Source: Niebla homalea (taxonomy: Eukaryota; Ascomycota; Lecanoromycetes; Lecanorales; Ramalinaceae). Taken from it: a DNA stretch of 64,000 nucleotides. How positions within the stretch are numbered: position 1 is the stretch's first letter; every line of letters begins with the position of its first letter. Below are positions 25,184 to 50,467 of this stretch, one piece after another. The DNA is taken from positions 744,001 to 808,000 of the forward strand of contig JAHGAU010000028.1 in assembly GCA_019925105.1 (NCBI GenBank), given 5' to 3'. Made by a program: the position numbers and the translations under genes. The notes below the pieces were generated by a model that was not told the DNA's origin, did no database searches, and saw nothing but the letters and a program-made list of their open reading frames with translations.

Positions 25184-25900
25184 ATGATTGCACTCCCTTC
25201 ATTCGCAACCGCAATCGTTCTCATAGCCACTGTATGCGCCCAGACTCCTCCAGGATTTTCACCCACCTGCAATGGGAACCTCGGCGTCGCATACTCGGAT
25301 TCCATGAGGGTACAGCCTGGAAGCTTCTCCCAAGCCTCAGGTATGATGACTGAGTGGCCAATGATCTCGATGGCGGCTTGTTGACGTGCGGTAGAGGAAC
25401 TCCTCACATTGCCGTCGATAAGCTGTGAGCTATTGGATATTTACAGAAGCTACACCGTCTTTATGATCGACCTTGATGTTATTGAAGGGGGCAAGGCGAC
25501 GACAATTCTCCACTGGTATCAGGAGGACCTCTTGTTGCAACCTAGTAGCGGCCGGTTGTTCAATCTCACCAATCACGGCGCAAGTTACGTTGGCCCGACT
25601 CCGCCACCTGGCCCCAGTCATCGATACGTATTCCTTTTATTCGCCCAACCGGAAGGATACACATTCCCAGCGTGCTTTTCGGAGATGCTTCCACTCACCT
25701 TAGCTGCACGGCAAGGGTTCAATATCGAGCAGTTTATGGATGTTGCCGATCTCGGGGAGCCTATAGCAGCCAATTACTTTACGGTGGTAAATCCAGAAGT
25801 AGCAACATCAACCCGGGTGGCTACGGCCACGTCATTGAGCTCTGCTGATTGTCCTCGAGCACAACAGACTGGCACTGAGGGCCACGTGGACTTGCGCTAA
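25184..25900 (+). CDS. Secreted phosphatidylethanolamine-binding-protein (PEBP) family protein
   Basis: Exons 25184-25340 and 25395-25900; the 54-nt intron (GTATGA...GGTAG) restores ...QASEELLTLPS, giving 220 aa. ATG 25184 opens a signal peptide (MIALPSFATAIVLIATVCAQ, likely cut after Ala-19). PEBP signatures are YTVFMIDLDV, LHWYQ, PPPGPSHRYVFLLFAQP and a C-terminal FTVVNPE. In characterised maleidride clusters PEBP-like proteins accompany the KSI-like cyclases and improve monomer coupling (established for the byssochlamic acid system). Here it sits between two AflR-like genes and about 8 kb from the second PEBP gene. The role in this pathway is inferred from that context; secreted fungal PEBPs also exist outside clusters. 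Confidence 0.88.
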
Positions 25901-27019
25901 GTGGTGGGTTCAGGAGCAATGCGAGGCCTTTGATTGCACGATATTCTGGGTGTGGAGGATAATTTTCTACTGATTGGCGGTCTTGTGAGTGGACACCTGC
26001 GACAAGTACGTGTCAGTGATGCAGGGTTCTTACCTAAGGTATCCATAGTGGTGTGAGGGGCAAGGAAGGTTCAGTCAGCCCAATTCGAAAAGAAGGTTGG
26101 AGGAAATATGAGCTAAACGGAATCAAGTGTAGGGCGATGGCTATAGCAATTTGTTGGTGGCCTTAAGGATCTTCATCCCATCTTCGCCTCACTTTCATCT
26201 CCCTCAGGCTCCCAGTCTTCCTCTCATGTCAGACGTCACCAGTGAAGATCTTATTCTTAACCTTGACGTTCTCCGTCCCGCGTTGCTTGTCTTGTAACAA
26301 GCTTTGGCATGGCGCCACCCGAAATATCCCCCCATTCGCTCTCCTGCTCCCGCTCCAATAGATTTTGATGTATGAATGAAGAGTTACCATCTCAAGTATC
26401 AATAGACGTCGATGCAAAGTCACTGGAAAAAGTCATTAGATTGTTATCCTCCTCGCCTTTTCAAACACGCTAATTACCTCCGTACCTTCTACATAGATTG
26501 CTGACGAGCCTCTGTACCAATCGGGCCTTATTGGCACCCAAACTAATGCGGTCCTCGCAGCTTGTAACCTCCCCACCAGACCGGCCAGGCTTACGCACAG
26601 ACCGCTGATCACTTGACTGCAGGATTAAAGCCGGGTCATCCCAGGAGACGCAATTGCTGGGATGGTAACCTCTCATCCCTAATGCTTGTCTGCCATCTTG
26701 CGATACGGATCGAGAAATTTCATACCAACGCAGACTACCTATGACACGAGACGGCTCATCAAAGCACGCAAATTACACATGTGAGGACTCAGCATAATCC
26801 CACGTCGAAGGATTCTTGGTAGTTCAGAAACCCGCAAGGGTGTCGACCTGTAGCATGCATTGACTTTAAAATATCTACTGCAGCCCCCGCACGATATCTC
26901 CGATGTCACTCTTCCTAGGTCGGTACTCGTGCTGTCCTCGTGGCACATCTGCCACTCTCTGGAACTCGTGCCAAATATTCTCGGGCTCGTCCAAACCATG
27001 AGATGTTGATGTCGTCATA
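25901..27019. other. Intergenic region upstream of the regulator gene
   Basis: About 1.1 kb with no open frame of recognisable type. It contains the promoter of the zinc-cluster regulator. Nothing else identified. Confidence 0.5.
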
Positions 27020-28570
27020 ATGGACTTCATGCCAACATCCCCTGGAACTAGGGACTCGGGAAGTAAGAAGGGAACAAAGCTGAGATCGACGTGTGATGCT
27101 TGCAAAGATGCAAAGGTCCGCTGCAACCGCGAGACACCGAGCTGTTATCGATGCCGCAATCAGAAGCTGAAATGCGTCTACAATCTATCTCGGCGCATGG
27201 GTCGACCTCGCAGAAACCGAAATGATGGAGAGTCAAACGACGCAGGAGCGGAAGAAGAGCCGGACGGAACAGACAGGACCAGACATCAGGGGGATAATGG
27301 TAGAATCCGTGAATCTACTCATGTAGAATCGGCGCCATACCGTGGTCATGGCTGTGGAGAATGTGCCCAGGAACAGGGGCAATGCAGTACACATCGAAGT
27401 GGCCATTCCACCGGATCAAGCTCGAACGGTGCTAGAATGCAAGATGATAACATCATGTCGTCTCTGGTGGACCCGTTCGGCAACCCGGATGATTACGATC
27501 TCAGCCAGCTTTCAGGCACGACAGAAATGCCAGACTTTGACCAGATGAATGATTTTGACTTCACGAATGGTCCAGGCATCACCATTGCTTCTGGTCCATC
27601 AACTCCAAACGGATCACGCACAACGCAATGGATGAGGCCCCAAACCTCCTCGATCCTGGATGGAGTCTCGATACGAGACCAGTACAGTGCAGCCCCTAAA
27701 TTGGCTTCCGTGCCAAAAACGACCTCTCTCTCTGACTCAAGTGCGCACACGCTTGCCGACGCAAACCTAATGCTGATGGATATGCTCGACCAGAGACCCG
27801 TGTCGAGCTCTGGAAGCCCATTACACTTGGAAGATTTGCCGTCCAACGGCAAGAACAGCATGGACTCTCCTTCACGGCCTAGCAAACACGGGGACAATGG
27901 CGTGACGGCGTTTAGGCATTCCACCGGCTGCGGCTGCTATGACAACATCCTCCAGAAACTTTCGGACGTCGACGAACGACACTCGGACAACTTTTCTTCC
28001 ACCATTGACGTCGCTCTGATGCTCGAGCAATGGGTGCAACTTGACATCACCCAAGTGCTCCAATGCGGTACTTGCGCCACCAGGCGACCCACACTTCTTG
28101 TGCTTTTGGCAGTCGTCATCGATAACGTCGTGTGCATGCTCGAAAACACATCAACCCTCGGCAACAGCAAGTCACCCACTGAGACAGGCAACAGCAGTAG
28201 TAGCAGTACGTCCGCTCCACCCAACTACCCGACGGCGCAGTCATCATTTCGAAGACCGCAAGTGGCCGACATGATCGGCACGAGCGGCGGCAGCTCCAGT
28301 GGGGCGAGCTCAAGACCAAAGACCCCCGATAGACCCCCGTTGCTCGTAGGCAGTCATGAGATTCTGTCGGATGAGAAGAACAAGTTCCTCAAGCAGCTCC
28401 TTCAAGGTCGACTCAGCAGCCTATCGGCGACACTGCGACAGCTGATGCAGTACATGCAACGTAGTGGTAGCCCACAGAATTCGAATTCCAGGCACGGGAC
28501 GATGATGCTGGCGGAGACTTATAAGAAGCTGCAGTCGATTATCGGACGCGTGGAGATGTGGGAGGGTTAG
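27020..28570 (+). CDS. Zn(II)2Cys6 transcription factor, AflR type
   Basis: Single exon, 516 aa. Near residues 24-52 the zinc cluster reads CDACKDAKVRC-x6-CYRCRNQKLKC, with the expected spacing CX2CX6CX6CX2CX6C, followed by the basic linker SRRMGRPRRNR. A low-complexity Ser/Thr/Asn middle region precedes the AflR-type C-terminal domain: CGCYDNILQKLSDVDERH near residue 310, then QCGTCATRRPT, and FLKQLLQGRLSSLSATL near the end. Proteins of this architecture are pathway-specific nuclear activators of secondary-metabolite clusters. Its position inside the gene set makes it the prime candidate regulator of the maleidride-like cluster (inference). I did not find a clear TCG(N5)CGA site by eye in the two main divergent promoters, but did not scan exhaustively. 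Confidence 0.93.
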   Translation: MDFMPTSPGTRDSGSKKGTKLRSTCDACKDAKVRCNRETPSCYRCRNQKLKCVYNLSRRMGRPRRNRNDGESNDAGAEEEPDGTDRTRHQGDNGRIRESTHVESAPYRGHGCGECAQEQGQCSTHRSGHSTGSSSNGARMQDDNIMSSLVDPFGNPDDYDLSQLSGTTEMPDFDQMNDFDFTNGPGITIASGPSTPNGSRTTQWMRPQTSSILDGVSIRDQYSAAPKLASVPKTTSLSDSSAHTLADANLMLMDMLDQRPVSSSGSPLHLEDLPSNGKNSMDSPSRPSKHGDNGVTAFRHSTGCGCYDNILQKLSDVDERHSDNFSSTIDVALMLEQWVQLDITQVLQCGTCATRRPTLLVLLAVVIDNVVCMLENTSTLGNSKSPTETGNSSSSSTSAPPNYPTAQSSFRRPQVADMIGTSGGSSSGASSRPKTPDRPPLLVGSHEILSDEKNKFLKQLLQGRLSSLSATLRQLMQYMQRSGSPQNSNSRHGTMMLAETYKKLQSIIGRVEMWEG

Positions 28571-29124
28571 AGTAAGGTGAGTCCAGGGTCTTTGGCAAGG
28601 ATAGAGCAAGATTGGGATAGATGCTAGAGGGAGATGGAGGGATTCTTTAGTAAAGGCCCCTACTGCACTGAATCAAATAACAACCACTGGGGTTTTTTCA
28701 TACAGGTGAGGCTGCAAAGCACTGAGATAACAACGGCGACAATGTCATGTAGGTGTGAAGCAAAGAGTATTCTGCAGGCAGAGAATTGAGTTCTTCAGCT
28801 CGTGAACCTCAAAGTGAATGGAGCAAGAGAAAGCTTGGGGAGAGGTTCGAGGTAGATTATATATTTCTTTTTCCATCGAGTGCTTTCTCTTCCACTTTCG
28901 GTTTCCTATTTCTGGGCTGTCCAATGATTCTCCTAGATCAACACAGTACTACTCGGTATCTATTCTGCTACTCTCAGAATCAAAGCGTTGAATCATGATA
29001 TCCAGTCTTTTTCGGGTCCCAAACAACACACATGACACGGCGCTTACCCCATCGCCCGGACCCCTCCTCCGCCTCCCTTCCCTCATCCATACCTTATCCC
29101 CACATCTTCTCATCTTCCTCCCCA
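28571..29124. other. Convergent intergenic region, no gene seen
   Basis: 3' flanks of the regulator gene (+) and of the MFS gene (-). Confidence 0.6.
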
Positions 29125-31300
29125 TTAGACCTTCCCCCCTCTCCTCCCCGTCCTCCACCCCCGCCCCCACAAACAGACCATCCCCAACACAGGCCCTACA
29201 GTACCCACCCACACCCCTGCCAGTCCCGCATAGGTCCACCCCCTGCCCAACCGATTCAAGACCGGATGTACCAGCGCGGTGGACCCGGCCCCCAAAAAGC
29301 AACGCACGAGGTTATTCGCCGCCGTGGCGGTGGCGGGGGTGCTGTAGTTGAGGTCGACGATGAGGACGTTCATGACGTTGAAACAGGCCGTGACGGCGAA
29401 GCCGAGAAAGAAGAGCAGGATGATGGGGATCGCGAGGGGGGGTGGGGGGGTACGCTGCAGGACCCAGGCGTAGACGTTCAGGGTGAGGGCGCCGATATAC
29501 TGTTTTTTGAAAATTATAGTGTCAGGGGGGGGGAAAAGAAGATGGAAGTGATTGAGGCTGGAAGGGAAAGGGGATGAGGGGAGGGGAAGAAGGTCTGGAA
29601 AGACGGACCAGCATCGGCATCGCGACTTGCAGCCTTGCCTTCTCGATGGGGAAGTGGGTGAGATCCTGCTTCTTCTTGCCACCGCCACCGCCCCCATCCG
29701 CAGCCTCGTCGTCATCGACACCGCCATCCCTCGACTTCTCGAGCCTCGCTACCCGTCGGAAATTCCAATCGACAAGGTATCCATTCAACCACGCTCCCTA
29801 AATAAGGAAGCGGAGTCAGCATTACTGTACATGATGATACAGGACCTCTCAACACGTTGATACAAACCCAACAAATCGATGCAAGTTAGTCAATCGCCGC
29901 CGAAAACCCACCAAAGGAAGGGAAGACGTAAGAGTGAAGATTTCCTCTTTATGCCAATCCAACAGCTTCAGAGAAAAAACATTGACGGAACAGGGGCCAA
30001 CAAAACAAAAGAGACGAAAACGTCTCTGGGGGCAAAGAAAAAAAGCTGTTGCTCACCATCGGCGTGCCCAAACCCGGCGCGATGAAAATGAGCCCGACCT
30101 GCAAATCATTCACCCCATAGATCTCATGGAACTGCGACGGCACGCTCGAGGTGACGAAGTAATACCCCGCAAACAACACCCCATTGCAGAGCAGGATCAA
30201 ACCCGTGGGCAGCTCGAAGAGCAACCTCAGCGTGGTAAGCGGGTTGGGGATGATGCTGCCGCCCCCCCTTCTTCTTCCCTTCTTCCCCCCACCACCACCA
30301 CCATCCGAATCCGGCACCGGCGTCGCAAAAGAATGATACCACCCCTCCCCCTCCCCCTCCTCGGCCTCATCATCATCATCATCCTCAACCAACGCCTTCA
30401 CCCGCCTCCGCTCCCTCTCCCTCCGCCACGCCAGGTACGAAAACCCCCACCACCGCCGCGGCACCGCACTCCCATCCCCCACGACGCCGCGACACGTCTC
30501 CGGATAGGCGACCGCCATCGGCACCGCCACCACCGTCGCAAACACCGCCAGGAACCAGAAGATGCTGCGCCACCCCAGGTACTCGCTCAGCACCCCCCCC
30601 ACAATGGGTCCCAGCGTGGGCCCCATGATGGACCCCAGCGACGCGAGACCCATGTACCTGCCCCTCTCGGAAGAAGTGACGAGGTCGGCGGCGACGGCGC
30701 TGGCGAGGGCGACGGTTCCCGACGAGCCCGAGGATTGCAGGGCTCGCAGCAGGAGGAGCGCGGGGAAGGAGTGCTGGCACGCCAGGAGGATGTTGGCGGT
30801 GATGTAGATGGTGAAGCAGACGAGGTAGATGGGGCGGCGGCCGGCGGTGTCGGAGAGGGAGGCCGTGATTGTGGGGGCGAGGCCTTGGAAGATCTGTGTG
30901 TGTGTGTCGTTGGCGTCTTTTATCAGTGTCTTGACGGGAGGGGGCTTGGGGGAGGGGGGCGGTCTAGGGGGCTCGATGGTGTGGTCGGGGAGAGGGGAGG
31001 GGAGGGAGGGAGGGAGGCAGGGGAGGGACTGACCATGTACGTCATGATGGTCAGGTTGATGAGGGAGGCGCTGATGTGCAGATCGGCGGCGATGGAGTTG
31101 AGGGCCGGGTAGTAGATGTTGGCTGAGAAGGGGGAGAAGGTGGAGGCTAGGGCGGCCGTGAGGATGATGTACTTCTTCTGTCGGTCCGTGAAGGCGGAGT
31201 ATTGCTCGGGTGGATGGAGTAAAGGGGTTTCTTCATCTGACGCTCGCCGTACTTCTTCGGTGTGGGTGTGTTTAGTGAAGCCATGGCTGTTGGTGGACAT
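29125..31300 (-). CDS. DHA1-type MFS transporter
   Basis: Four exons on the minus strand, 31300-31034, 30893-30057, 29797-29609 and 29499-29125, all joined in phase 0, give 555 aa; introns are 140, 259 and 109 nt. The start ATG (31300) opens MSTNSHGFTKHTHTEE. The first helix block SPFSANIYYPALNSIAADL, the splice junction TYM-IFQGLAP and the loop LSDTAGRRPIYL match the transporter at 18671-20481, marking them as members of one DHA1 (Qdr-like) subfamily. The central cytosolic loop is expanded by Asp-, Glu- and Gly-rich low-complexity segments, and a second Gly-rich insert follows WNFRRVARL. Likely an exporter of the cluster product or a self-protection pump (inference). Confidence 0.9.
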
Positions 31301-31981
31301 GATCGTAAGGCTGGTGGGGAAACGTCTGACTCGATAGTGCGATAAGGTGACTGAGTAGGGAACTAAAAAGGACTGGAAGGTAAGGCATTTAATTATCTTG
31401 TCATAAACGATGAAACTAGTAAGGCGGTCTGCTTGGTCTGGACTTCAACAGGAAATCTCTCCGGTGCAGAACCGTCGGCCTTTCTTCGACTGCTGCTGCA
31501 TGGGGCAGTACCAAATGCCGGAGGGGAGTTTTATGCTAGGAGAACCATCGGTCTGCAATGGTAGGGTAGGAAAGCTGACCATGACTGAGGAACTAGATAC
31601 GGTGTCGCCGCCTACAGACCAATGCTATTGTGTTTCGGAGAAAAGGAGGCGTGGTTTAGATCATTGATGGGCGTGATTGTTAAAACTTGCAACTGCACTT
31701 TTATGAGAGCCCGATATTGAGGATGTTCTATGAGGTAATAGCAGCCAAGCAATCTCAATGTATGACCAAGCAGACCAATCCTCTTGGATCAGACAGAGCC
31801 TCAGGCTCATTTGAGAGGAAAGATTGCAAGCAAATTATCATTCCCGATCGCCTGTCTGATAATGAACCCACTCACCACCATTCTGCCACTCCGTCAAGGA
31901 CACAAACCCAACCGCAATCCTAACCTGCCTCACTCCCCAGCTCTAGGGTTACAATCCTCAACAGCTGCGTTCGATCCTTCT
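31301..31981. other. Intergenic region, promoter of the MFS gene
   Basis: 680 bases between the MFS start codon and the 3' end of the KSI-like gene, both on the minus strand. No further gene seen. Confidence 0.5.
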
Positions 31982-32806
31982 TCAAGGCATCAACTGCTCC
32001 AGCTCGGTCAGATTGGGCATGCCGGCCGGGCCGGGCTCAAACTCATGGTGATCAGTGTATCTGGTGGCGTTCCACCAGATCTCATTCTCGTGCAGCATCT
32101 GCGAAACGCGGGTGGAATCGATGTATGTCCGAACCTGAATCATCTGGTTCTCGTGGCTCCATCTGGTGACCCATACGTTGACGATGTCGAACTCGGAGCC
32201 TTTTCTCCAAATCATCAGATACTCACCTTCGGAAAGTGTTTTCCAGAGCAAAAGAAGAGGGCGCAATGGACACTTACCGCTGTTGGACATGCCTTTGAAG
32301 TTCATCTCCTGAACCGACCATTCCTCATCGCAACCTCCGTGAATGCCCATTGGATTGACACGGAAAGCATCAGGGTGCTCCGATCCCGTGATGCTGACTC
32401 GGCGAAGGGCGTTGACGTAGAAATGCATCAGGTCGTGATAGATGCCGGCCCCCGGATGATGGCCCACGATCTGAAAGTGCACGTCTTTGTTGATCAAGGT
32501 GAACAGGCGACTCAGATCGGTCTCGAGTGTTTTGAATGCCTTGTAGATGTACGGCTGGGACACGTATTTGCAGTCAGTCTCTGGGTTTTCAAAGAAGAAG
32601 CCGTCTCGGTTGGCATCGAGAAGGTCATCCGGGGTCACGTCAAAGTCGTTGGTCTTGACATCTGGGGCCGCTTCATGGCAGTCTGGTTTTGCAGAGATGG
32701 GTTGTTGAACCTCGCCATGACGATGAGCCCAGAGGTCCGCAACTGCTGCTGCTGCTGGTAAGACTTGGCCAGCAAGGCCAAGAGTGAGGAGACGTAGGCA
32801 AAGCAT
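31982..32806 (-). CDS. Secreted NTF2/ketosteroid-isomerase-like protein, candidate maleidride cyclase
   Basis: Two exons on the minus strand, 32806-32278 and 32226-31982; a 51-nt GT-AG intron restores SNSGEYLMIW; 257 aa. ATG 32806 was preferred over an upstream TTG because it starts a clear signal peptide (MLCLRLLTLGLAGQVLPAAA). The mature region has the NTF2/SnoaL-like pattern: a helical start ETDLSRLFTLINKDVHFQIVG, then GIYHDLMHFYVNALRRV, and beta-strand segments EYLMIWRKGSEF and MIQVRTYIDSTRV. In known maleidride clusters one or two ketosteroid-isomerase-like proteins carry out the decarboxylative dimerisation of maleic anhydride monomers. The adjacent PEBP gene and nearby alkylcitrate genes point to that role here; the family match is by pattern only. 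Confidence 0.8.
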   Translation of the reverse strand: MLCLRLLTLGLAGQVLPAAAAVADLWAHRHGEVQQPISAKPDCHEAAPDVKTNDFDVTPDDLLDANRDGFFFENPETDCKYVSQPYIYKAFKTLETDLSRLFTLINKDVHFQIVGHHPGAGIYHDLMHFYVNALRRVSITGSEHPDAFRVNPMGIHGGCDEEWSVQEMNFKGMSNSGKCPLRPLLLLWKTLSEGEYLMIWRKGSEFDIVNVWVTRWSHENQMIQVRTYIDSTRVSQMLHENEIWWNATRYTDHHEFEPGPAGMPNLTELEQLMP

Positions 32807-33758
32807 TGTGAATCGATGGCAGAAAAAAGGAGATTCAATCAATGGACAATGAATTGCAAACTAATGGCTGGTGGAGTGGTGGGCATGTCGTCCCCCATTA
32901 GGTATATTGAGGCTTTTCTCTTGAGCATAGCAACCAAATACCAAGCGAGCACATTGGATCGGTAACTTTCGACAACTTCGGCTTGTTCTGTGTAACCATG
33001 TTGAATTGCGGCTCTTTCTTCAAATGTCACGACATCGGAGAGTTTTGGAAAGGTGCCCGACCGAGCAGCCAACGGCCTCTTTAGCCTCACTGATCGACAC
33101 CGGTGGATCATGGTAAAGATTGGTAAGGGTGGAGCATATGCAGGTTCAAAGTATGTAGAATGATGGTTGTATCATCATGCAGATTTCCGTCAAGGAAGAT
33201 GAAAGACGGTGAAAATAATCAGGAAAGATTGGAGAAATGCTGTGATAGTCTAGTCCTATTGTATATTAGCTCCTCTATTTCTACTCCTGTTGAAGAAGTG
33301 GTGCCAAGTTGGGGCTGGTTGGTGCCTTATCTAGCACGCTAATGCTTAGTAAGGCCCGAGTGGGTCACATGCGGGGCTCGGTTTCAACGGGATCATCACC
33401 GGAATTAAGCTAGCCTTGCATGAGCCTGCTAGCCTATCCCTAGGTCCCCAAGGTTCCTTACCACTTAGAGAGGCTCCTTTTCCAAGCAGTGGTAGAGTAA
33501 GTAGGTACCTAGGCAGGGTAAGACATGAAAAGAGCATGCAGGACTGCGTCATGTTTGGCTCCTCCACATGGCAATCGCAATCTCATCTGTTCGCGTCAAT
33601 CAATCCTCTTTGTTTTTCACTTTCAAATCTACACGCGTCGTCCGGGTCAATAAAATCGGACAACCGCAACATCATCGTTATTAGCAACCTGCTTGACGCG
33701 TCCTTGACATTTCCATTTCTTCTCTAGTCAGATCGTCTGTCTCTTGATATCAGTAATC
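32807..33758. promoter_or_regulatory. Divergent promoter region of the KSI-like and PEBP genes
   Basis: 950 bases separating two divergent pathway genes, so it should carry both promoters and would be a natural site for co-activation by the cluster regulator. No specific motif is claimed. Confidence 0.5.
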
Positions 33759-34400
33759 ATGGGCCCCCCGGCCTTCATCGAATATGGCCTCGGTAAACTC
33801 TTCTCCTATGCCAAAGGCCACGAAGCCAAAGTCTTCACCAAGGGCCCCGCCTTCAAGGACCTGCCCAACCCCACCATCGACCTCACCTGCCCCGAATGCG
33901 GGCCCTCGGGTTCCGTCATGAAGCTGCACCACACCCAAGTCGGCCCCAACGGCAACAAGGACCGCTTCCCGCACCTGACCTGGCAGGCAGTTCCGGGCGC
34001 CAAGGAGTACATCCTGCTGTGCGAGGATGTCGATCTGCCCGTCCCGGCTGTGGTGTTTCACGGCCTGTTCTATGCGTTGCCCGGTACCAGGACCGAAGTC
34101 ACGGCCGAGGACATGGATCCTGTGGATGCGGCGGCCGATGCGAAGAAGAGCGCGGGGCCGTACATGGCCAAAGGGGGGTTCAAGTACTTGAAGAATATCC
34201 AGGGGTCGCATTACGGGGGGCCGAAACCGTTGCTGGGGCATGGGGTTCATCACTACTATTATCAGTTGGTGGCGCTCAAAGAGCCGGTCAACACGGACAA
34301 GATGGCCAAGGTGACCAAGGACGGGTTGGGGCAGGCGATTGTGGGGAACGTGCTTGGATGGGGTCAATGGATTGGGACTTATGAGAGGAAGTGGGAGTGA
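33759..34400 (+). CDS. PEBP (YbhB/RKIP-like) family protein, cytosolic type
   Basis: Single exon, 213 aa, from ATG 33759 (AATCATGG) to TGA. There is no signal peptide. Family features are FPHLTWQAVPGAKEYILLCEDVDLP, the HGLFYALPG segment, GPKPLLGHGVHHYYYQLVAL and a C-terminal GWGQWIGTYER. This PEBP branch is the type found in maleidride clusters, where PEBP-like proteins assist the KSI-like cyclase. It is divergent from the KSI-like gene and convergent with the PKS gene. The gene is visibly GC-richer at third positions than the flanking DNA. Confidence 0.9.
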   Translation: MGPPAFIEYGLGKLFSYAKGHEAKVFTKGPAFKDLPNPTIDLTCPECGPSGSVMKLHHTQVGPNGNKDRFPHLTWQAVPGAKEYILLCEDVDLPVPAVVFHGLFYALPGTRTEVTAEDMDPVDAAADAKKSAGPYMAKGGFKYLKNIQGSHYGGPKPLLGHGVHHYYYQLVALKEPVNTDKMAKVTKDGLGQAIVGNVLGWGQWIGTYERKWE

Positions 34401-37900: not shown

Positions 37901-40900
37901 TGGAGTTGATGTGTTCGTCGGACTCACGCGGAAAGTCGCAAAGAGAGGCTTCTAAGCCCGAGAAACCACACTGCGTCAGAGTTTCGTGCCACTGCTGCTC
38001 GCTCATGGTAGGTTGAGCTCCCGCCCACCAGCTTGGTAATGTGCCGAATAGGATGGTGTTGGACATGCATCCGCGGGTCATTTCTATGAGGATGAGCCTA
38101 CCACCTGGCTTCATCAGCTTGCGCGCGTTGTTCAAAGCATTGGACGTCGACTTCGTTCGGCAAAGCGAATGGGCGGCGATGATCACGTCGTAGGATCCTG
38201 CCTCGTATCCCTGACCCAATGGATCGGTTTCGATGTCGAGGGTCTGAAAGCTCATCAGGGGTTTCCACTGCGTATACTTCTCCCTTTCCTCTTCGAATCC
38301 ATCCTTGCTGACATCCGTATAGGTGTATCTCTCCAAGCGAGCGATATCTTCTTCACTACCACCCAGCGCTTGCATGACAACGGGCGTCGCACCATCACTG
38401 GCCGCTCCAATCTCGAGGATCGAAAGTCGAGGGTTCTTGTGGCCTAGTAGATTCAGGTACTTTGCGAGGCTCTGGGAAGAGCGGTTGTACCGCACGCTCT
38501 CCTTCTTGTAAGCCTCAAGATGGCCACCGAGGTGCCCCTTTTCGGCCATTAAATGCCATGGTTCGACCTCTTTTCGGAGGATGGCGGGCAGCTGACGACC
38601 GATGTGGCAGAGCAGATTGCCCTCCGCACCCGAATCTCTCACGCCGTGTCGTAGGTCCGCTCGCTCGGATTGGCTGGCACTGTTCCATGAAGCGGTTGGA
38701 GCGTCAGGCTTCGCTTGTTGTATGTTTTGGACGTAAGATTGTATGCATTCCCAGAACTTCTGGTGGTGAGGATGCATGTTTTCCACCTCACTTTGTGCCA
38801 CCATTTTCAGGGTCCACTCGAGATAGTAGAATGCTACTTGATCTAATGCCCGACTCGCGGCCATCTCTTGCTCGGTGGGTCTTTCGGGCAGACAGAGTCC
38901 TGCTATGGCCTGTGATGAGAGAAGGTCCACGTCCGGTTGCCACTCGAAGTTGTGGGCCACGCGCTTCATCTCCTGGCTCCCAGTCTCCACAACGTCTCTG
39001 GCGAGGATTGTGCACTCCAGATCCGTCATCGTAAGGACTGGCTCTTCTGGGCGATTCTTGTCGAATGCCATCAGTGAGGCGATGATGTAACGCTCGTCCT
39101 TCTTCTTCGTGGTGGTGTACGTAGTCACCGTCTCGCCCGGCTTGTTGGTGATATCAGCAGAGACGAAGATTTCACCCAACAACACAGGCACTGCTGGATC
39201 CTGCAGCAAGCCAGCTTCGGCAGACAGGGCCACGAAGATCGGATGGAGCATGCTGTCCAGCATGGCCGGATGTAGAATGAATGGGTATTGGAAATTGAGG
39301 GGCATGACGGATGCCGTGTCTGGCGTCACAATCTCCGCGACACAAGAGTTCCTCGCCGACCGTGCCTTGGTCATATTCGAAAAGGTTGGGCCGTACTCCA
39401 GTCCTAAGCTCGTGAGGTGGGAATAGAACTCCTGGACATCTACATCCTTGACGCATTTTCCTTCTGCCTCCGCGATGACATTGGTGAAAGACTTCTTCTC
39501 GGCCTGCATCACCACTTCGCCATCGATGATGTTGGTGCTCTTCTGTGGCGTTACAACACTGACCAGACCGCGACAGTGCTCTGTCCAGCTATTATCGTCC
39601 GTGACGGAGAACACGCAAAACTCGTCCCACAGGTCGGACGGCGATTTGATGCTCTCGGTATAAGGTTTGAAGGTCACCAGAACCTCGACCTCACCCTCTT
39701 GCTCCGGGATGATGAGTGCAGATCCGACGGATATCTCGCGTAGCTTGTAGCCGGTGATGTTTGTGACCGACCTTTCCGTCGCACGCTGGAAGGCAGCCTC
39801 GATGGCCATGACGATGTATCCAGCGGCGGGGTAAACGACGTTGTTCTGAACCTTGTGGTCGTTGATCCACGGGATCTCCGACGTCCGCAAGTGGTTCCGC
39901 CAGCGAGGTTCGAGCGGGTTGGAATTCCTGTCCAAGGCGCCGAGAAGGTCCGTCCGGGGGAACTTGCGATTGCGAAAGACCTTGCTGAGGCGGGGCTCGG
40001 CCCAGTAGCATTCCCGGTGGTTCCACGAGTAGGATGGCAAGTCGACGAGCAGGTTGCGGCTTTCCTTGCCGGCAGGGCGATTGATCGCGTGGAAGGCCAC
40101 CAATTGACCTCTCATGATCAACTTGGAAACCAGTTCTTGCGAAGTCTTGACCGCGTTACGCTTGCGAACGAGAGCTGACATGTATTCAATGGAGGCTTCC
40201 TTCAACTTGGCATCGGCTTGGAGAGTCTGCTTGATGGGTCCAGCCAGTGCTGCATGAGGTCCCAATTCGATGAGGGTGTTCACCGTTGGAGTAGCAGCCC
40301 GCTTGCGCTGCCTCTTGCTGGAACTTGTCTCATAGCAAAGCTGGTGAAGAGAGGTGGCGAACTTTACCTGACTGACCATGTTGGCCACCCAGTAAGCCGA
40401 TCCCAGCTCTGATGCGCTGGTGACTCTCTTGCCCGTGACCGACGAGAAGAATTGAACAGTGTCCTTTTCGCGACGAGGGATGATCTTTGACAGCGCGGCT
40501 GAGTATTCCTCGGCAACCAAAGCCATGTGGTGAGAATGATAAGCCACCTCGACGGCGAGTTTGCGAGCGAACATCTTCTTCTCCTCCAATATGCCTTGCA
40601 ACTCATCGATCGCGGAAACGTCCCCCGAAATCGTCGTGCTGGAGGGACTATTCACGCACGCCACCTTCGCCTGCCCGTTCGTCAGCGCAGACACGTACGG
40701 CTCGACGTCTTCCTCAGACATCCCCACTGCCATCATCGCTCCCTTCACTTTGCCAGTCTTTTGCATGTTGCTCGACGCGACCCCGCGGTAGTAAGCGACT
40801 TCCGTGGCGTCCTCCCAGGTGAGAGCGCCGAAAGCATAAGCAGCCGCAATCTCACCGCTGGAATGGCCCGTCACGGAGGCTGGAGTGATGCCCCAAGAGT

Positions 40901-43792
40901 CGAGGAGATCCACGAGGGCGATCTGGACGGCAGTGCAGATGGGCTGGCTGTAGAGTGCGAGCCCGATCTGGGAGCCGTTGGGATCTCTGGTGATCTCGTC
41001 TTCGCAAAAGAGAAATGTTAGCGTATGAAGCTCAGCGGCATGCCAGGGTCGACAGGCAAGTCTTCACCTTTTAGGACAAATGGAGCCCCAAGGCTCGTCA
41101 ATTTAGCTCCCATCTTCTCGATGGAACTCCGGAAGATAGGGTACGAGGCCAGCAACTCGCGGCCCATCCCACACCACTGCGCTCCCTGCCCCGTGAACAC
41201 AAATCCAATCACCGGCTTCTTCGAGTTCTTGGAAAAGATTGTGTCGTTCCTCAACTTTTCAATCAGGTCGGAGCTCGACTTGGCCGAGATGGCCGCCTTC
41301 CAGAGGAAGTTCGACCGTTTCTCATCCAGCGTGTACGCGAGATCGTCCAGCAAACTGCTATCGGAATCCTCGAAGTGCTCTTCCAGATGGCTCGCGAGGA
41401 TTTTGGCGTACTTCTTCCCGGCTGCTTCGTCGACGGAGGAGAGGACAAAGAGCCGAGAACGCTCGTCCACAGGTTTAGGAGGGGAAGGGACAGCGCCGTC
41501 GAAATCAATTTTGGTCTCGGTGCTGGTGGGGGTGGTGTTGGCGGATCCATCCTTCAAACCCTCGCTGGAGCTGTTGGAGAGACCATCAAACGAGTCGGTG
41601 GAAGGGCTACCGTTGACTACGAAGGAGCCATTGAGGTGAGGTGCCTTGGAAAGTTCAGTGGCTCGTGGGAGGATTGATTTGGTCTTCCTGTGAGCAGCCT
41701 GGAGACCATGTGATGACATGTATCCTACAGTGTCCTCGAGGATGGCATGAGCATTCGAGCCGCCATAACCGAAGCTGTTGACGGAAGCTCGACGGGGACC
41801 CTCGACAAGCCACGGCTCCACGGCTGTCGTCACCTGGCGTTGTAAGTGTCAGTTTCGCATAAGGTAAGTGGTTGTAAGCTTCAGATATGGCTTGTATCTT
41901 ACCTTTAATTTCCACTCATCAAAAGGAATTCTAGGTAAAAGTGGAGTCAGCATTGCCAGTTACACTACTTCGCCCCCAAGGAAACATATGATCGAAAGTT
42001 GGAGCAACGCTTCTGGATTTTACCATGCCACGAGTAACGTGATGTCCTGGATTACTTCAAGCAATGCAAAGCCCCCCATAACATCGACGGAAAAAGGGAA
42101 AAAAACGGCCTCTGAGGTTCGCTCACCTAGGATTTCCATTCCGGAAATTCCGGTTTGGCAAAATCATTTGGTTCTCCAGCATGAGGACAGTCTTGATCAC
42201 GCCTGCGATACCACTTGCGCCTTCCAAATGACCCACGTTGGTCTTGATGGACCCGATCTTGAGGGGGTCTCCCACCGGTCGAGTCGGGCAAAACACTTTG
42301 GAGAGCGCGCCGGTCTCGAGTGGATCACCGGCCGGCGTCCCTGGATTTCACTGCCATGTCAGAGTCGATACATCGCAGTACAAAGTTTTTCAAATGCCGT
42401 GAGTGACGAACCTGTCCCGTGGGCCTCCACATAGCTAGTCTCCCTCGGGTTCAGCCCCGCGTCCTCGTAGGTCTTCCGGATCAACGCTTCCTGGGCCGTC
42501 GCACTCGGGAGCGTGATGCCGGACGTCTTACCGTCCTGATTCGACCCGGTACCTCGAATGACGGCGCGGATGGTGTCGCCGTCCTTCAGTGCATCGGCCA
42601 GGGGTTTGAGGATGATGCTACCGACGCCTTCGCCGCGGGCGTACCCGTTGGCACGATCGTCAAAGGTGTAGCAGCGACCGTCGGGGGACATGAATCTGTT
42701 TTGCTCCCCGAATCAGCCAGCACTCCTTGGTCAATAAAAAGCTTGCTGGAGATGAAGGAGTCACCTCATCATGCTCATGGCAATCATGATCTCGTGACTT
42801 AGAATCACATTCGCCCCGGCCACCACGGCGCGCTTCGCGTCCCCTGTCCGCAGACTCTGGCAGCCCAGGTGCAGCGACACCAGACTGGCCGAGCACGCGG
42901 TGTCGATCGTCACACTAGGGCCGTGCAGATCGAAGAAGTAGGAGAGCCGGTTGGCAAGGGTGGCGCGCGAGTGGCCGCTGTTGGTGCACTGATACATGGG
43001 GACAGTGTCCGGGTCGCGGAGGAGCATGTCGGTGTAGTCGCCGCAGAAGGAGCCGACGAAGACGGACGTCTGGGTTCCCAAAAAGTCATCCAGGGGGGTA
43101 CCGGCTGGTTTGTGGCGTGTCTGTGTCAGTGACACGGCTTTTGGGGTGGAGGGATGGGGAAGATTCGTGTGAGCCAGCCAACATACAATTTTCGAGAGCT
43201 TCGTAAGTACATTCCAGTAGCAGTCGTTGCTGCGGGTCCAGTGCCTGCACGGTTTCACAAATAAGTATTGGGATGGGAGAGACGCTTTCGATTCGGGTGC
43301 AGATGAGAGGAAAACACCACCCACAGCAACCTCTGTACTGGTCATCCCGAAGAACGGCGCATCGAACCGGGAAAGGTCATCCGTCATGAAATGCCCCGCC
43401 TCAACATTATGCTGTGCAAAAAACAATCACAATCGTCAGTTCTCAATTCCATCCATCCCGCGCCTCCTCCTCCGCCAAGGACAACTAAGGTAGGTATTCA
43501 CCGTTCCATTCCTGGCCGAGTTCGGGTGGTAAAAAGCCTCGTTGTTCCATCTGCCGGGAGGGATCTCGGTGCGTCCCTCCCGTGCCTCGGCGACCATCTT
43601 CCACAGCTTCTCGATGCTGGTCGCGTCGCCGGGGCCGCGGAAGCCCATGCCCACGATGGCGATGGGCATCGATTTATCCCCCTCGATCGTGGGTGGGCCG
43701 TCGCTGCTGCTGCTCCTGCTGGTAGGAGGGGGAGGTGCCGGGGATGATGGCGTGGGCCCGGCATGGCCGTTCAGGTTCAGGTAGGGAGCCAT
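34985..43792 (-). CDS. Highly reducing iterative type I polyketide synthase
   Basis: Eleven exons on the minus strand: 43792-43502, 43411-43325, 43244-43187, 43104-42765, 42695-42412, 42340-42127, 41930-41903 (28 nt), 41833-41068, 40999-36264, 36207-35887, 35830-34985; about 2656 aa. Order is KS-AT-DH-cMeT-ER-KR-ACP. KS: active Cys in TACSASL near residue 216, [30 protein letters not shown] near 736. [17 protein letters not shown] near 1071. cMeT: motif I reads [10 protein letters not shown] near 1554 instead of the usual EIGAGTGGAT, so methylation may be lost. [14 protein letters not shown] near 1983 and ATGGLGQA near 2080. [11 protein letters not shown] near 2289 and Tyr near 2430. ACP: GIDSL near 2604. 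No release domain is present, which fits the adjacent hydrolase. It should make a reduced, unsaturated acyl chain from malonyl-CoA in the cytosol. Confidence 0.96.
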
Positions 43793-44360
43793 TGATGGAG
43801 GAAGGCGGCGGCCTCGTGAGTCCTGAGGGTTGAAAGAGAGAGGGGGGGAAGGGGGCAAGCTTAGCAGCTTGTCGCGAAGAAAGCCTCAGGTGATCATGGC
43901 TTTTGGGTGTATAACGAAGGTGAGCGCTGAGGATAGCTGTATGGTCAAGCTTGATTCGATGGTTTTTTTTTTTGGTCTTGTTTTTTTGTACCAGAACTGA
44001 TCTGGAAAATTTTATGATATGTCACAGCTGAACAGGACAGGAGTATGCAGCGAACGACTTACACAAAGAACGCTAACCGTAGGAAGAAGATACACATCGG
44101 TCTCTTTTGGTTCGGTGACGGTACATTTCGGCAAGTCAGGTAATCATATCGCCTTTCTCATGTGCCAGACCCTCTTCGACTCTCGGCAACATGGCCACAC
44201 AGAACGCCTGATCTTGCGCGGACTGCTGGCTCCTTAATCGGTTCATCCCAGTGAAGCCGCAGATGTTAGTCACAATCGCTTGTTTTTCCGAACACTCTCG
44301 CGAGCCTTATTGGTCAAGGATCTAGTTGTGCAAGTCTAACGCAGAAAAATTCCAATTCAA
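43793..44360. promoter_or_regulatory. PKS upstream region
   Basis: 570 bases between the PKS start and the stop of the hydrolase gene, same strand. It contains a T-run (about 43964-43976) and the presumptive PKS promoter. No gene seen. Confidence 0.5.
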
Positions 44361-45148
44361 TCACGAAAGGAACGAAGCCCGGGCATCCAGCTCCTTCACC
44401 GCCTTGGCCATCGCGCCCAGGAATTTCCTATCTCCTGGAATCTCATGGCCCCGATCATGCACAACCAGACTCGCCGATCGCGCATCACACAATTTATATA
44501 GCCTCAGCGAGTGATGATAGATGAAATCGCTCTTCCCCACCACATGCACCGTCGGCACGTTAATGTTCATCCCCACCGTATCATCGAAATGTAATTGCTC
44601 CTCATCGTCCATCTGGAAGGGCGGGAGCGCGTTCATGAACACGGCGCAGCGAAAGGGCGCATGGCCGTAAGGGTGCTGCTTCGCATAATGGGCGAGGAAA
44701 CCGGCGGCCAGGGTGCCTCCTTGGGAGAAGCCGAGGACGCCGTCGAAGGGCCCTTCCTCCTCGATGGTCTCGGAGAGGAGCTCGTAGGCTTCGTGGATGG
44801 ATCGCTCGTCCTCGTGGACGGTACGGGGCCATTTGTAGAAGCTCAGGTAAGGTCCTTCGTAGAAGCCGTCGATCCCTGGGCCGGGAGGGGAGTCGACTTC
44901 GCCCTCGACATGATGGAAAGAGGCTGTGTTGTCCTTTTGGAGTTCGCGGGCTAGTGGGCCTGTTGGATGGTACGTTTAGAAACTCGCTCCCTTCCAGTGT
45001 GGTGTCATCAATTGAATACCTAGTTGATGTTTCAAGATCTGTCGTTTGTATACGTAAGTCTATCTTTGATTGGATGTACCTGGTGATGCTAGCCTACCTC
45101 AGCGTTGGTCCCACAGCCGTGCAGGCAGAGAAACCGAAGGCTAGGCAT
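44361..45148 (-). CDS. FSH1/LovG-type serine hydrolase (PKS off-loading thioesterase)
   Basis: Three exons on the minus strand, 45148-45098, 45038-45020 (19 nt) and 44959-44361, give 222 aa. The micro-exon restores the family N-terminus FLCLHGCGTNAEILKHQLGP. The nucleophile elbow is GFSQGG, the Asp lies in GKSDF and the His in DRGHEIP, a complete Ser-Asp-His triad. The length is normal for fungal FSH proteins (200-280 aa). In lovastatin and many HR-PKS pathways this family releases the chain from the ACP; maleidride clusters also carry a hydrolase. Its place directly downstream of the PKS on the same strand supports that role. The C-terminus (ASFLS) is not a PTS1 signal. Confidence 0.92.
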
Positions 45149-45390
45149 TGTAGTCCAGGAGAGGCGGTGGAGCTTGTGCAGACGTGCGTCTCGGTGGCTT
45201 ACGTGTCGCCTGCCCGTTTTCCGTGGGTTTGATACTCGATGGTGAAGAGAGGGGGACCTTAATATACCTATTGTTCGGGTACTTTTTCTGCTAACCCGTG
45301 GCCATACAGATACTCCCGGCTTATTGGTATTTGTCAACCGATTCTAAGGAGCCCAGCAATCAACGATTGGTTCACAGATAGTACCTATTC

Positions 45391-46286
45391 CTATAGCTTT
45401 GCACACGTGTCCACGTTCCTGAGACTGCCCACACCAAGGACCCGATCCAAGTCGGCAGCAACTTCAGCCTCAGAATATTCAGTGTTCCACCCGTGCGTCT
45501 CTTGTACCTCTGCGGGCAATCGTCATTACTAGAAACGTTCAGGATTTCAAGGGAGCAAGCGGTACTTACTTGCCCGGATATTGCGCACCCGCCAGAGTGC
45601 CTGCTTCGACTTCTGCACAAAGCCTGGATTTCTAGCGGCGATGACTGCCGCCAAATTGAGTCCCTGCTTGAATGCCTCGTCATCACTCTCCAACACGTTA
45701 CTCAAGAGGCCAACATTCAGAGCCTCGCGGGCGCTGAATTCCCTTCCGCTGAGGGTGATGTCGAAGATCCAGCTACTGTTGCCAACAAGCTTGGGCAGCA
45801 GGCGGAGGAAGATAGGGTCGGTTGCCTCGGAATCCCCGATAGCGAATGACGCGCTCGCCGCGGAAAGGCGTATGTCGCAGGCGCACACTAACCCTATAGG
45901 CAAGGTGGAATGGGAGCCCAAGGTCACACAAATTACGGCTGGGAGCGCCGTCAATCTCATCAGCTCATCACAGCAGCGCACCCAAGCCAAGTGGGTTGCG
46001 AGTGGGGAGGTGACATGTCCAGTGGGTGCTTACGCTTCACACATTGTAATATGGTAGCAATGCACTCTTGCATGCCGCTACGGCACATGCCTGCCCTTTC
46101 TCCAGCTCCAGAGAGGATAATGACATGGACATCAGAGTCATTCGACAGTTTCTGGAACGTAAGTTGGAGTTCCCGGCATCGACGCAAGCTGGAAGTCTGG
46201 TTTGAGGCTAGAAAAGAAAGGTTCACATGAGCCACGTGAGGTTTTGCAAGTCGGGCCTGCAAATGTGTCTCTGGGCGAGGGTCCAT
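45391..46286 (-). CDS. Enoyl-CoA hydratase / dienoyl-CoA isomerase-like protein with PTS1, diverged active site
   Basis: Model on the minus strand: exons 46286-46041, 45963-45570 and 45509-45391, 252 aa, frame-consistent; the first junction is the least certain. Crotonase-fold landmarks are VIILSGAGERAG, LTALPAVICVTLGS, ACDIRLSAASASFAI and LPKLVGN followed by GREFSAREALNVGLLSN, closest to the delta3,5-delta2,4-dienoyl-CoA isomerase group. The usual FxAGxDL oxyanion/CoA segment is replaced by MCRSGMQEC. The KEVDIGLAAD-type acidic segment is replaced by GDSEATDP and is about three residues shorter. The protein ends in AKL, a canonical PTS1, so peroxisomal location is predicted. Related PTS1 proteins act in the peroxisomal biosynthesis of Alternaria epoxy-decatrienoate (AKT3 type). 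It shares a divergent promoter with the alkylcitrate synthase gene. Confidence 0.8.
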
Positions 46287-47000
46287 TCCCGTGATTTCCG
46301 TGATGAAGTGTAGGTAGGAGCGATATAATCAACGGCTTTTTGGTATAGGAGGAAGCAATAAGTCTTCTTGTTGCTGAATACCACGTCTCGAATAGCCTCC
46401 TCCCAAAGCATTGGGGATACAATCAACAGGCTCTTGGCACGCTACTTGGTAATATTGAAGTAAGTTCGTTGTATGATCATTGATACCGTCTGCCTTTCGA
46501 ACGATGCTAAACCATGCCGGGTGTGGGTCTCGACTCAAGTGTGCCTTGAGATAAGGTCTCCAAGGTTTGGTTCTGTATGCATTTCGGTGCCTTCTCGAAA
46601 GAGCGATGTAAGCGTCAAGAAGTTCCTCCTCGGTCTTTAAAAGCAGGGGCTCCCGCGAAAAATATTTCGGAAAGGCAAGCGAGCATTACTAACATGCTGC
46701 ATAAGTTGCCGAGATGTTGCTTATTCACCGAAATCCGAAACCCTTTGGCTGGGCGAAGAGCTACACCGGTGTACTTTCCATATTCCATGACAATAGTCCC
46801 GATGGAATGTAGACGAGCGGCAGTCTTGGAGTAATGAAGCATGGTGACTTCAGGGTTTGGTCCATCGTTCCGGGACCAAGTGCCTTGATGCCTCGCTTGC
46901 CTGATTTTCACTTTAGGCTCAAGCACCCTTCTTGTTCCCCTTGGAAAATGAATCTCGAGTCTTCGCAGGGAATCGAATCCAAGGTTCATCATATTGATCA
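46287..47000. promoter_or_regulatory. Divergent promoter of the isomerase-like and alkylcitrate synthase genes
   Basis: 714 bases between the start codons of two genes whose products both carry PTS1 signals, suggesting joint control. No specific motif identified. Confidence 0.5.
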
Positions 47001-48599
47001 ATGTCCTCAGGCAAGCTCTTCGTCAAGGACTCGCGCACAGCGCACGAGTACGAGATCCCCATCGATCGCAATGGCGTCCGCGCCACCGCCTTCAAGCAAA
47101 TCAAAGCTCCCGGTACAAGCACCAACAGAGCCGACAAGGTTGCCAACGGCTTGCGAGTGTTCGATTCGGGCCTTCAAAATACTGCCGTCGTGGATACATC
47201 AATCAGTTTTGCGTAAGGGCATCTTTTCTGCATTGTGCAAAACGTCCTGACCTGAACAGAGAAATCGGCGAATGTAAAGTGACGGCGATCGTGGTGAATT
47301 GTTCTATCGCTGCTACAACCTGAAGCAATTATGGAACTGCGATTTTGAAGCGATGCTTCACCTAATGGTCTGGAACGAGTATCCCACTGGGCTGCAGATT
47401 GAATCGCTCCGCCGTAACTTAGCTACGAGGATGATGAAGGTCCCTAAAAGCGTGGCTGAAGCTGTGCATTCATTCCCGTGAGTCCAAGAGACTGGCGGCG
47501 AAGGCGCAATGAACGCTGAAAGCTCGGTAGAAGATCAAGCCCGCCCATGCCAATGGTCTTGGCCGGTCTCTCGTCGTACCTGGGGAGTGATCCAGACTCG
47601 ATCCCGGCTTTCAATGGTGGGAACATCTATCATGGAAATGCAAAGCTTGTCGATGAGGGTATCGTTAGAACGGTAGCGGCCTATGCAGTGGTGTGCGGAC
47701 TGGCTGCCAGCTACAGGAAAGGTATTAACTACACACCTGCATCAGCATCGAACACCTACTATGAAAACCTCTTTACCATGATGGGCGTTGTCGATGCTTC
47801 GAGCGGAATACCGGACCCGAGAAGCCTCTCTTGTTTCAGACGCTTTGCCGTCTTGAACGCGGATCACGGTATGACGCTATCCACCTTCGTTCTGCTTGCC
47901 ACTGCCTCTGCACTCGCCGACCCGATTTCTTGTCTCATCAGCTCGCTATCAGCTGCCTACGGTCCACTTCATTTTGGTGCTCCAGAGGCCGCCTGCAGAA
48001 CTCTCGAAAAGATAGGTGGTGCCGAAAATGTGCCTTCCTTCATCGAGGAGGTGAAGAGGGGCCAGCGCCGTCTTTTCGGATTCGGCCATCGAACATACAA
48101 AGTGGTGGACCCTCGGCTGGGACCGATCAAAGAAATCCTGGCAGAGCTCGATGCTGCGGCAAATCCACTCCTAAAGGTCGCGCAAGAGATTGAGAGGGTC
48201 GCTTCCGCAGATGAATACTTCAAAACGAGGCACCTCAATGCGAACGCGGATTTTTATGGTCATTTCGTCTTCACCAGCATGTAAGGCTTCCTCTGTTGTT
48301 TAGACCTCACACCACGAGATTGCGACAGTCCCTTCTCAAAGGAAGAAGCTGATGGTGCGGCTGTTTCTCCAGTGGCTTTGAACCGGAATTCATTCCTTTG
48401 GTGATGCTTGCACAGCGCCTTGTTGGCCTTATGGCGCATTGGCGTGAATCCATGTGTAAGTCATTTGTTGATCAGAAACGAGAACTTCAGAGTTCTATCA
48501 CTTACTTGATGCACAGCACGGGATATCAAGCTGTATCGCCCGTCCCACATCTACACTGGATCCGTAACATCGAACACAAAAACCACATCCAAGCTGTAG
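47001..48599 (+). CDS. Citrate-synthase family protein, alkylcitrate synthase type, with PTS1
   Basis: Five exons, 47001-47212, 47280-47477, 47531-48280, 48373-48455 and 48517-48599, give 441 aa; introns are 53-92 nt. It opens MSSGKLFVKDSRTAHEYEIP, has DGDRGELFYRCYNLKQLW, SSPPMPMVLAGLSSYLGSD, LNADHGMTLSTFV, YGPLHFGAPEAA (His of the citrate-synthase GPLHGGA motif), FGFGHRTYKVVDPR and NADFYGHFVFTSIGFEPEFIP, so the catalytic core looks complete. The last residues are TSKL, an exact PTS1 peroxisomal signal. Alkylcitrate synthases condense a polyketide- or fatty-acid-derived acyl-CoA with oxaloacetate in maleidride, squalestatin and related pathways. The neighbouring PrpD-like gene on the same strand supplies the next step. 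A primary-metabolism methylcitrate synthase is less likely, because that enzyme is mitochondrial and this N-terminus shows no presequence. Confidence 0.93.
48591..48599 (+). other. PTS1-encoding 3' end (SKL + stop) of the alkylcitrate synthase
   Basis: The codons before TAG at 48597-48599 spell Ser-Lys-Leu on the spliced frame of exon 5. Exon 5 is fixed by matching the family sequence DIKLYRPSHIYTG after the last intron. Confidence 0.85.
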
Positions 48600-48938
48600 A
48601 GTGTGTGTACTCTCGGGAAAAGATTGTGATTCATGAATTGTATAGTAGCAGGATCTCTCTCTCAGATGGTGCAAGTGCAACTCCATTCGTAGGATAGGCA
48701 GCGGGGAAATGAATCCTGAGTCGATATATGCCCTCCCAACTGAATTATGTCACACATGATCATGTAGCGTAGCGTGGTATATTATAAAGCCACCGAAGGG
48801 TGTCTTACGTAGCTGACTTGGAGCCCGGGTATCGTAAGAGCTCTCCAACAGTCCGCCACGATTCATATAACACTGACAGGCCTACCAACTTGACAATCGC
48901 GACTGTCCGCTCACACTGGTCAAAACAAGGAATATACA
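48600..48938. promoter_or_regulatory. Short spacer carrying the MmgE/PrpD gene promoter
   Basis: 339 bases between two same-strand genes; no other feature seen. Confidence 0.5.
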
Positions 48939-50467
48939 ATGACCCCCCAACCTTTCGATAAAGTCACGGTCGACATCAAAGATTATGTATATCATTACGA
49001 GGTCAAAAGCGTCAAAGCATGGCAGCAGGCTCGTGTCGCACTTCTCGATGCCTTGGGTTGTGCGGTGGAGACGGTAGCACAGAGTGCCGAGTGTCGTCGC
49101 CTCTTTGGACCGTTCGTCCCAGGCACCGCCACTCCAGCTGGCTTCAGACTGCCCGGAACATCGATCCAGCTGGACCCTGTAAAGGGCGCTTTTGACTTGG
49201 GAACTGCGATACGGTTTCTTGACCATAACGATGCGATCGCCGGAGCGGATTGGGGCCATCCGTCAGGTCCGTTCAGCCGCTCACTCTCTGTCAAATAAAG
49301 TTGTGGCTCACTGACTTGACGACAGATAACATTGGGTCCATCTTGCCGGTGATGGATTGGCTCAGTCGTTCTTCGGCGAGTGGGAGTCTTACTCATCAAG
49401 GACCACCATTGACAATCAACACTCTACTGATCGCCATTGTCAAGGCTTATGAGATCCAGGGCTGTTTCCTGCTGCGAAATGCCTTCAATGCGCGGGGACT
49501 CGATCACGTCATTCTGGTCAAGCTCGCCTCAACGGCTGTTGTCTCTTGGCTTCTCGGTCTATCAGAGGAGCAGGCCATGGCTGCCATCTCCCATGTCTGG
49601 ATGGATGGGCATCCTCTCCGCGTCTATCGCTCTGGCGCGAATACGATTCCGAGGAAAGGCTGGGCGGCAGGCGACGCGTGTATGAGGGCCGTGCACCTCG
49701 CATTGATGGTGCGATCTGGCCAACTCGGCTCACCCACCGCCTTGACGATGCCAAGATGGGGATTCTATGCCACCATGTGGGGTGGGAAGGAGTTTGAATT
49801 CTTGAGGCCTATGGGGTCGTGGGCAATAGAGAACATCTTTTTCAAGGTCATGCCTGTCGAAGGGCACGGAATATCGGCTGTTGAAGCTGCGCTTGTTCTG
49901 GGGGATAGGATCCGAGCACAAGGCTTACATCCTGGCGAGGATATCACCAAGATTGCGATCCGAACCAATGCTGCCGCTCATCTGATAATCAACAAGAAAG
50001 GTACACTCACCAATGCTGCCGATCGCGATCACTGTATGCAATACGTGGTCGCCCTTGCTCTGCTGAAAGGCAGCGTCCCGGAGACACAGGATTTCCAGGA
50101 TACAAGTGTCTGGGCAAAGAACCTCACACTGGAGGCCTTGAGGGAGAAGATTGACATTCGAGAAGACCAGGATCTGACGCGCGACTACCTGGACGTAGAG
50201 AAGAAAAGTATTTCGGCAGGAGTCACCATTGAATTAGCAAAAGGGAACATCCTCGAAGAAGTCCTGATTGAATTTCCTGTTGGGCACGTCAATAGTGACA
50301 AGACTGCTGAAAGAGTGCAGGAAAAGTTTCTCAACAGCATGAGAATGATGTTCTCTTCAGAAGAGACACGTGCAATTGCTGACATCGTCGATGAGAAGAG
50401 CAATTGTGATGTCCATGAACTGGTAGATTCGTTTGTACGAAATACATACGGAGAAATGAAGTTGTGA
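48939..50467 (+). CDS. MmgE/PrpD family protein, alkylcitrate dehydratase type
   Basis: Two exons, 48939-49266 and 49326-50467, give 489 aa; the 59-nt intron restores WGHPSDNIGSILPVMD, the conserved junction of fungal 2-methylcitrate dehydratases. Other landmarks are FDLGTAIRFLDHNDAIAGADWGHPS (Asp/His-rich active-site loop), RSGANTIPRKGWAAGDA, and AIRTNAAAHLIINKKG. The full-length N- and C-terminal domains are present, and the size matches the family (480-500 aa). In maleidride pathways this enzyme dehydrates the alkylcitrate to the maleic acid/anhydride monomer. It lies directly downstream of the alkylcitrate synthase. It ends in MKL, which is not a standard PTS1, so the location is unclear. 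Confidence 0.93.

Follow-up and report, generated by a model that had tools for sequence, protein, structure and literature searches.

A 64,000-nucleotide stretch of the genome of the ascomycete Niebla homalea (the window; positions 744001–808000 of contig JAHGAU010000028.1, here C28, in an assembly that totals 50.6 Mb on 52 contigs) carries in a single block genes for a highly reducing polyketide synthase (PKS), an FSH hydrolase, an alkylcitrate synthase, an alkylcitrate dehydratase, a maleidride dimerising cyclase (MDC) and two PEBPs, alongside an enoyl-CoA isomerase, regulators and MFS pumps. Maleidrides are ring-shaped compounds formed by the joining of two anhydride units. Gene models were built with a small script that scores splice sites together with codon usage and had been trained on long open reading frames, most of them from the same assembly, and the predicted models were checked against Pfam, NCBIfam, PDB and protein databases. 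A hexamer coding score trained on three open reading frames of the window was over-fitted, and the codon score from long open reading frames performed better. Exon ends are approximate, being predicted from the sequence, most so in the MFS, isomerase, hydrolase and synthase models. Domain searches and gene models confirmed the proposal of an initial annotation that a complete maleidride-type gene set lies here in one block. The genes of the window appear to cover the core set defined by Williams et al. (PMC8851701).

The PKS gene (34985–43792, − strand) is predicted to encode 2652 aa with the domain order KS-AT-DH-MT-ER-KR-ACP, as in the maleidride core set. What are presumably the active-site motifs of the KS, AT, DH, KR and ACP domains are present. 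The SAM motif of the methyltransferase domain deviates from the usual form, as has been published for several maleidride PKSs, which are 2416–2620 aa long (PMC8851701). In the database search, 7986 sequences with most words in common with the query were scored, and 7978 matched. Among the best 120 of these 7978 matches, the closest was ACLMJK_007562 of Lecanora helva (74–75% identity over the whole length), followed by a Xylogone protein (64%) and ScyPKS (63–65%), with phiA at 52%; no ZopPKS was among the 120. A tree of the window PKS and 36 of the 120 matches, selected by the authors, joined the window PKS with that of L. helva (SH-aLRT support 100, obtained by the quick method with no bootstrap), and these two with the Xylogone PKS and ScyPKS (99). 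The window PKS thus falls in the clade of the synthase of the scytalidin pathway. ScyPKS serves a tetraketide product, scytalidin, and a tetraketide is therefore the best guess for the chain made by the window PKS. Assembly-wide, 98 sites match the ketoacyl-synthase N-terminal domain, counted per exon, which indicates a fungus rich in polyketide synthases.

The ER domain bears on chain length as well. Both ER motifs are intact in six of the ten PKSs compared (window, L. helva, Xylogone, ScyPKS, phiA and one from Cadophora) and eroded in the other four (cornexistin, Bipolaris, T. atroroseus and the other Cadophora); the eroded state was found in all three PKSs labelled as triketide synthases. 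Byssochlamic acid and cornexistin are examples of triketide maleidrides, a product class that would use the same core genes, and the MDC of the window matches a ketosteroid-isomerase-like protein of Paecilomyces divaricatus (59% identity over 73%). However, the PKSs of cornexistin, Bipolaris and T. atroroseus stand apart from the window PKS in the tree, and the window PKS shares its intact motifs with ScyPKS; a triketide product is very unlikely.

The MDC gene (31982–32806, − strand) encodes a KSI-like protein that gave no Pfam or NCBIfam match and was assigned from its homologues, a tree and invariant residues. The database search returned 66 matching proteins, in which the best named matches were from Xylogone and Diffractella and no L. 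helva protein was named. ZopL4 of the zopfiellin pathway is the closest characterised relative (66% over 86%), and phiC is more distant (38% over 64%). A tree built from the window protein and 28 of the 66 matches grouped the MDC with ZopL4, the Xylogone protein and seven unnamed proteins with a support of 100/100, so that the KSI-like protein lies inside a maleidride clade, as had been anticipated; phiC formed a very long branch and its placement is unsure. All 18 columns that are invariant across 35 MDCs are retained in the window MDC. Of a further 39 nearly invariant columns it keeps 38, and the remaining one holds the family-consensus residue rather than that of ZopL4. A structural model of ZopL4 has the predicted NTF2/SnoaL/KSI fold; sharing a fold does not establish the reaction. 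A search of the genome with the MDC as query found this gene only.

To the left of the PKS block, 21438–22743 (− strand) encodes a CmcJ/NvfI-type (AsaB-like) 2-oxoglutarate dioxygenase (NF041278, 201.9 bits against a cut-off of 80; NvfI structures, E 2e-24), with no Pfam match. ScyL2 came first among the best 120 of 243 database matches, with 52% identity over 93%. The window dioxygenase and ScyL2 have in common HVD, a distal His and an Arg, presumed here to hold their usual roles. ScyL2, the 6-hydroxylase of the scytalidin pathway, converts deoxyscytalidin to scytalidin, and deletion of scyL2 halts Scytalidium album at deoxyscytalidin (PMC8162798). The window enzyme is thus regarded as ScyL2-like and as a putative ring hydroxylase, and would be the best clue to the product. 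If the dioxygenase instead contracted the ring, the pathway would lead to a zopfiellin-like octadride, in line with ZopL4 as the closest characterised relative of the MDC. Yet ZopL9 was not among the 120 dioxygenase matches, ScyL2 and ZopL9 share only about 25% identity, and no ZopR4-like FAD oxidoreductase was found among the window gene models tested; an octadride product is therefore considered highly improbable.

The remaining core genes were assigned by family. The alkylcitrate synthase (47001–48599, + strand, last exon uncertain; PF00285, 174.6 bits) matches citrate synthase structures with E 7e-70, and the alkylcitrate dehydratase of the MmgE/PrpD family (48939–50467, + strand) matches 2-methylcitrate dehydratase 1szq with E 2.8e-136, in agreement with the core set. 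Exon matches to PrpD and to citrate synthase are scarce genome-wide (8 and 11, respectively). The FSH/AlnB-like hydrolase (44361–45148, − strand; PF03959, FSH1, 95.7 bits) corresponds at the family level to the AlnB-like hydrolase of the core set and had no PDB match at E 0.001; its gene model runs on to 44136 by way of a doubtful last exon, and the open frame ends at 44361. The PEBP at 25184–25900 (+ strand; PF01161, 46.3 bits) is of the eukaryotic sort, with PDB matches to CG7054, FT, CEN, TFL1 and PEBP1. It is a type 1 candidate by this resemblance, as type 1 maleidride PEBPs resemble eukaryotic PEBPs (PMC8851701). The PEBP next to the PKS (33759–34400, + strand; PF01161, 72.4 bits) is of the bacterial YbhB sort and a candidate for type 2, with PDB matches to YbhB, YbcL-type chains and a PEBP (E 1e-4 to 8e-3).

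The accessory genes include an enoyl-CoA isomerase/hydratase-like protein with uncertain ends (45391–46842, − strand; PF00378, 44.1 bits), a Zn2Cys6 transcription factor (27017–28570, + strand; PF00172, 28.8 bits) and a weakly matching AflR-type regulator piece that lacks a zinc cluster (24260–24913, + strand; PF08493, 25.3 bits against a cut-off of 24). An MFS transporter with uncertain C-terminal exons lies inside the block (29094–31300, − strand; PF07690, 147.4 bits), and a second one, a possible cluster member at 18761–20481 (+ strand; MFS_1, 154.8 bits), is 43% identical to it across 486 columns. A predicted gene of 213 aa without a Pfam match (51143–52055, − strand) adjoins the dehydratase gene; it may lie beyond the cluster or be a member of unknown kind. 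Two names given by eye elsewhere in the window were not used: dienelactone hydrolase for 16883–17910, which had no Pfam or NCBIfam support and a single odd PDB match, to an entry labelled chloroplast PsbY (E 6.6e-7), in which no stretch passed on its own, and AusD-like methyltransferase for 60667–61822, which had no Pfam, NCBIfam or PDB support. A single stop-free open frame of 4862 codons occupies 3–14588 (+ strand).

The gene order PEBP-PKS-hydrolase-isomerase-citrate synthase is the same as in the scytalidin cluster of S. album (PMC8162798). The two clusters also share MFS pumps, a regulator, an MDC, a dehydratase and two PEBPs. They differ in the position of the dehydratase gene, which follows the citrate synthase gene in the window, and in the H2A neighbour, which was not seen among the window models. 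The same five-gene order is found in the zopfiellin cluster of Diffractella curvata (PMC8162798, PMC12231587). It had been suggested that extra genes such as the isomerase may define a new member of the family. However, 50% of maleidride clusters, known and putative ones taken together, contain an enoyl-CoA isomerase (PMC8851701), and in the gene tables for scytalidin and zopfiellin the isomerase also sits between the hydrolase and the citrate synthase (PMC8162798). The span given for the cluster, 25184–50467, holds for the core genes but misses the ScyL2-like dioxygenase, and the four relatives named with it include zopfiellin but not scytalidin, although ScyPKS and ScyL2 are the closest characterised relatives of the PKS and dioxygenase among the matches listed. 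With the claim of newness weak, the dioxygenase missed and the scytalidin lineage not singled out, that interpretation is only partly supported.

The locus is probably a complete gene cluster for maleidride biosynthesis that belongs to the scytalidin/zopfiellin lineage, and it would likely direct the synthesis of a nonadride of tetraketide origin, of the same type as deoxyscytalidin and scytalidin. By analogy with characterised relatives, from which each reaction, the chain length, the ring size and the hydroxylation are drawn, the PKS would make an unsaturated tetraketide and the hydrolase would release it. After activation with CoA by an enzyme presumably encoded elsewhere, the isomerase may position the double bond, the citrate-synthase-like enzyme would couple the chain with oxaloacetate, and the PrpD-like dehydratase would yield the maleic anhydride monomer. 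The MDC, aided by the PEBPs, could then join two monomers to give a nonadride of the deoxyscytalidin type with a nine-membered ring, and the ScyL2-like dioxygenase may hydroxylate this ring.

Several points weigh against this assignment. The dioxygenase shares only 52% identity with ScyL2, MDC trees do not track the mode of coupling, and the PEBP beside the PKS is YbhB-like, whereas the PKS-side PEBPs of the scytalidin and zopfiellin clusters are listed with BfL5 and Tfl1, respectively, and are apparently of the other sort. ScyR11, a maleidride conserved protein, is required for scytalidin; the gaps between the cluster genes contained no convincing gene, though no search directed at ScyR11 was made. 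In contrast to the scytalidin and zopfiellin clusters, an isochorismatase-like gene linked to the others was not found: PF00857 had no match on C28 and eight matches on seven other contigs, C42 and C10 among them, and a very divergent gene could escape this search. When the isochorismatase gene, scyR4 in S. album or zopL2, is deleted, what remains is mostly deoxyscytalidin (PMC12231587), and deoxyscytalidin may be the main product of the window cluster if no isochorismatase assists. The same missing match would suit a silent or partly inactive cluster that yields monomers only or nothing. However, the MDC keeps its invariant residues and the core-gene models give open frames, and such a loss of function is regarded as unlikely.

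A second maleidride cluster in the genome was considered at two loci and not borne out. On contig C9 (1725593–1732230), a gene similar to the alkylcitrate dehydratase (51–54%), a second, different MmgE/PrpD gene and a gene similar to the alkylcitrate synthase (37%) were found; of the 13 query proteins, the remaining 11, PKS included, had no match within 30 kb. These genes perhaps belong to a fatty-acid-fed alkylcitrate or alkylitaconate pathway. On contig C23 (19612–27572), a homologue of the alkylcitrate dehydratase lies in pieces about 5 kb apart (39–54% identity), adjoined by a PEBP gene (35% identity to the second PEBP of the window), with a weak match to an MFS protein (32% identity across 100 residues) and no PKS, alkylcitrate synthase or MDC match within 29 kb. 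This locus resembles the remains of a related pathway. Beside it, at 16000–18000, the G+C content falls to 0.157, as compared with about 0.5 in the remainder of the 29 kb.

A counterpart is seen in the lichen fungus L. helva. In addition to the PKS, its protein ACLMJK_007555 matches the window dioxygenase (70% over 46% of the query). The locus tags 007555 and 007562 belong to contigs of identical size and are seven tags apart, and the dioxygenase and PKS genes of the window are separated by seven gene steps, which suggests synteny as far as tag numbers can indicate it. An orphan cluster of the lichen fungus Imshaugia aleurites (PMC8851701) also has the maleidride core genes but differs from the window in that it is reported without PEBPs, with PvL7/PvL11 homologues and with a PKS that falls in another clade. 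For Evernia prunastri, a published account mentions predictions of zopfiellin and scytalidin (PMC13169696). Horizontal transfer of maleidride clusters between fungal classes has been proposed.

Homoheveadride, a tetraketide nonadride, was obtained from the lichen Cladonia polycarpoides (PMC9890510), and a literature search found neither a gene set for it nor a characterised maleidride cluster from a lichen. The name homoheveadride came up in a single paper, a review, and the passages found there give no gene cluster for the compound. The window cluster could make such a head-to-head nonadride, in which case the dioxygenase would serve another step or another pathway. This would agree with a lichen fungus, L. 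helva, giving the best PKS match and a partial dioxygenase match among the matches listed, and the MDC sequence does not reveal the coupling mode. However, the nearest characterised PKS, MDC and dioxygenase are from the head-to-tail-like scytalidin/zopfiellin group, and scytalidin is reported to have the byssochlamic acid ring; a head-to-head product is thus rather doubtful.

The assignment of the cluster as a further member of a known maleidride pathway, closest to that of the antifungal scytalidin, is well supported. More tentatively, the cluster and its L. helva counterpart might represent a branch of tetraketide maleidride biosynthesis in lichen-forming fungi, making a scytalidin- or homoheveadride-like nonadride without the linked isochorismatase with which related clusters support the dioxygenase. 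If so, this would be the first gene set for a tetraketide nonadride of a lichen. Maleidrides include antifungal and herbicidal compounds, and the control of coupling by the cyclase is described as unsolved (PMC9890510). A new full set of the scytalidin/zopfiellin lineage supplies another MDC, one whose substrate can be predicted. The cluster is also a natural test of the need for an isochorismatase, and it may lead to the genes for homoheveadride.
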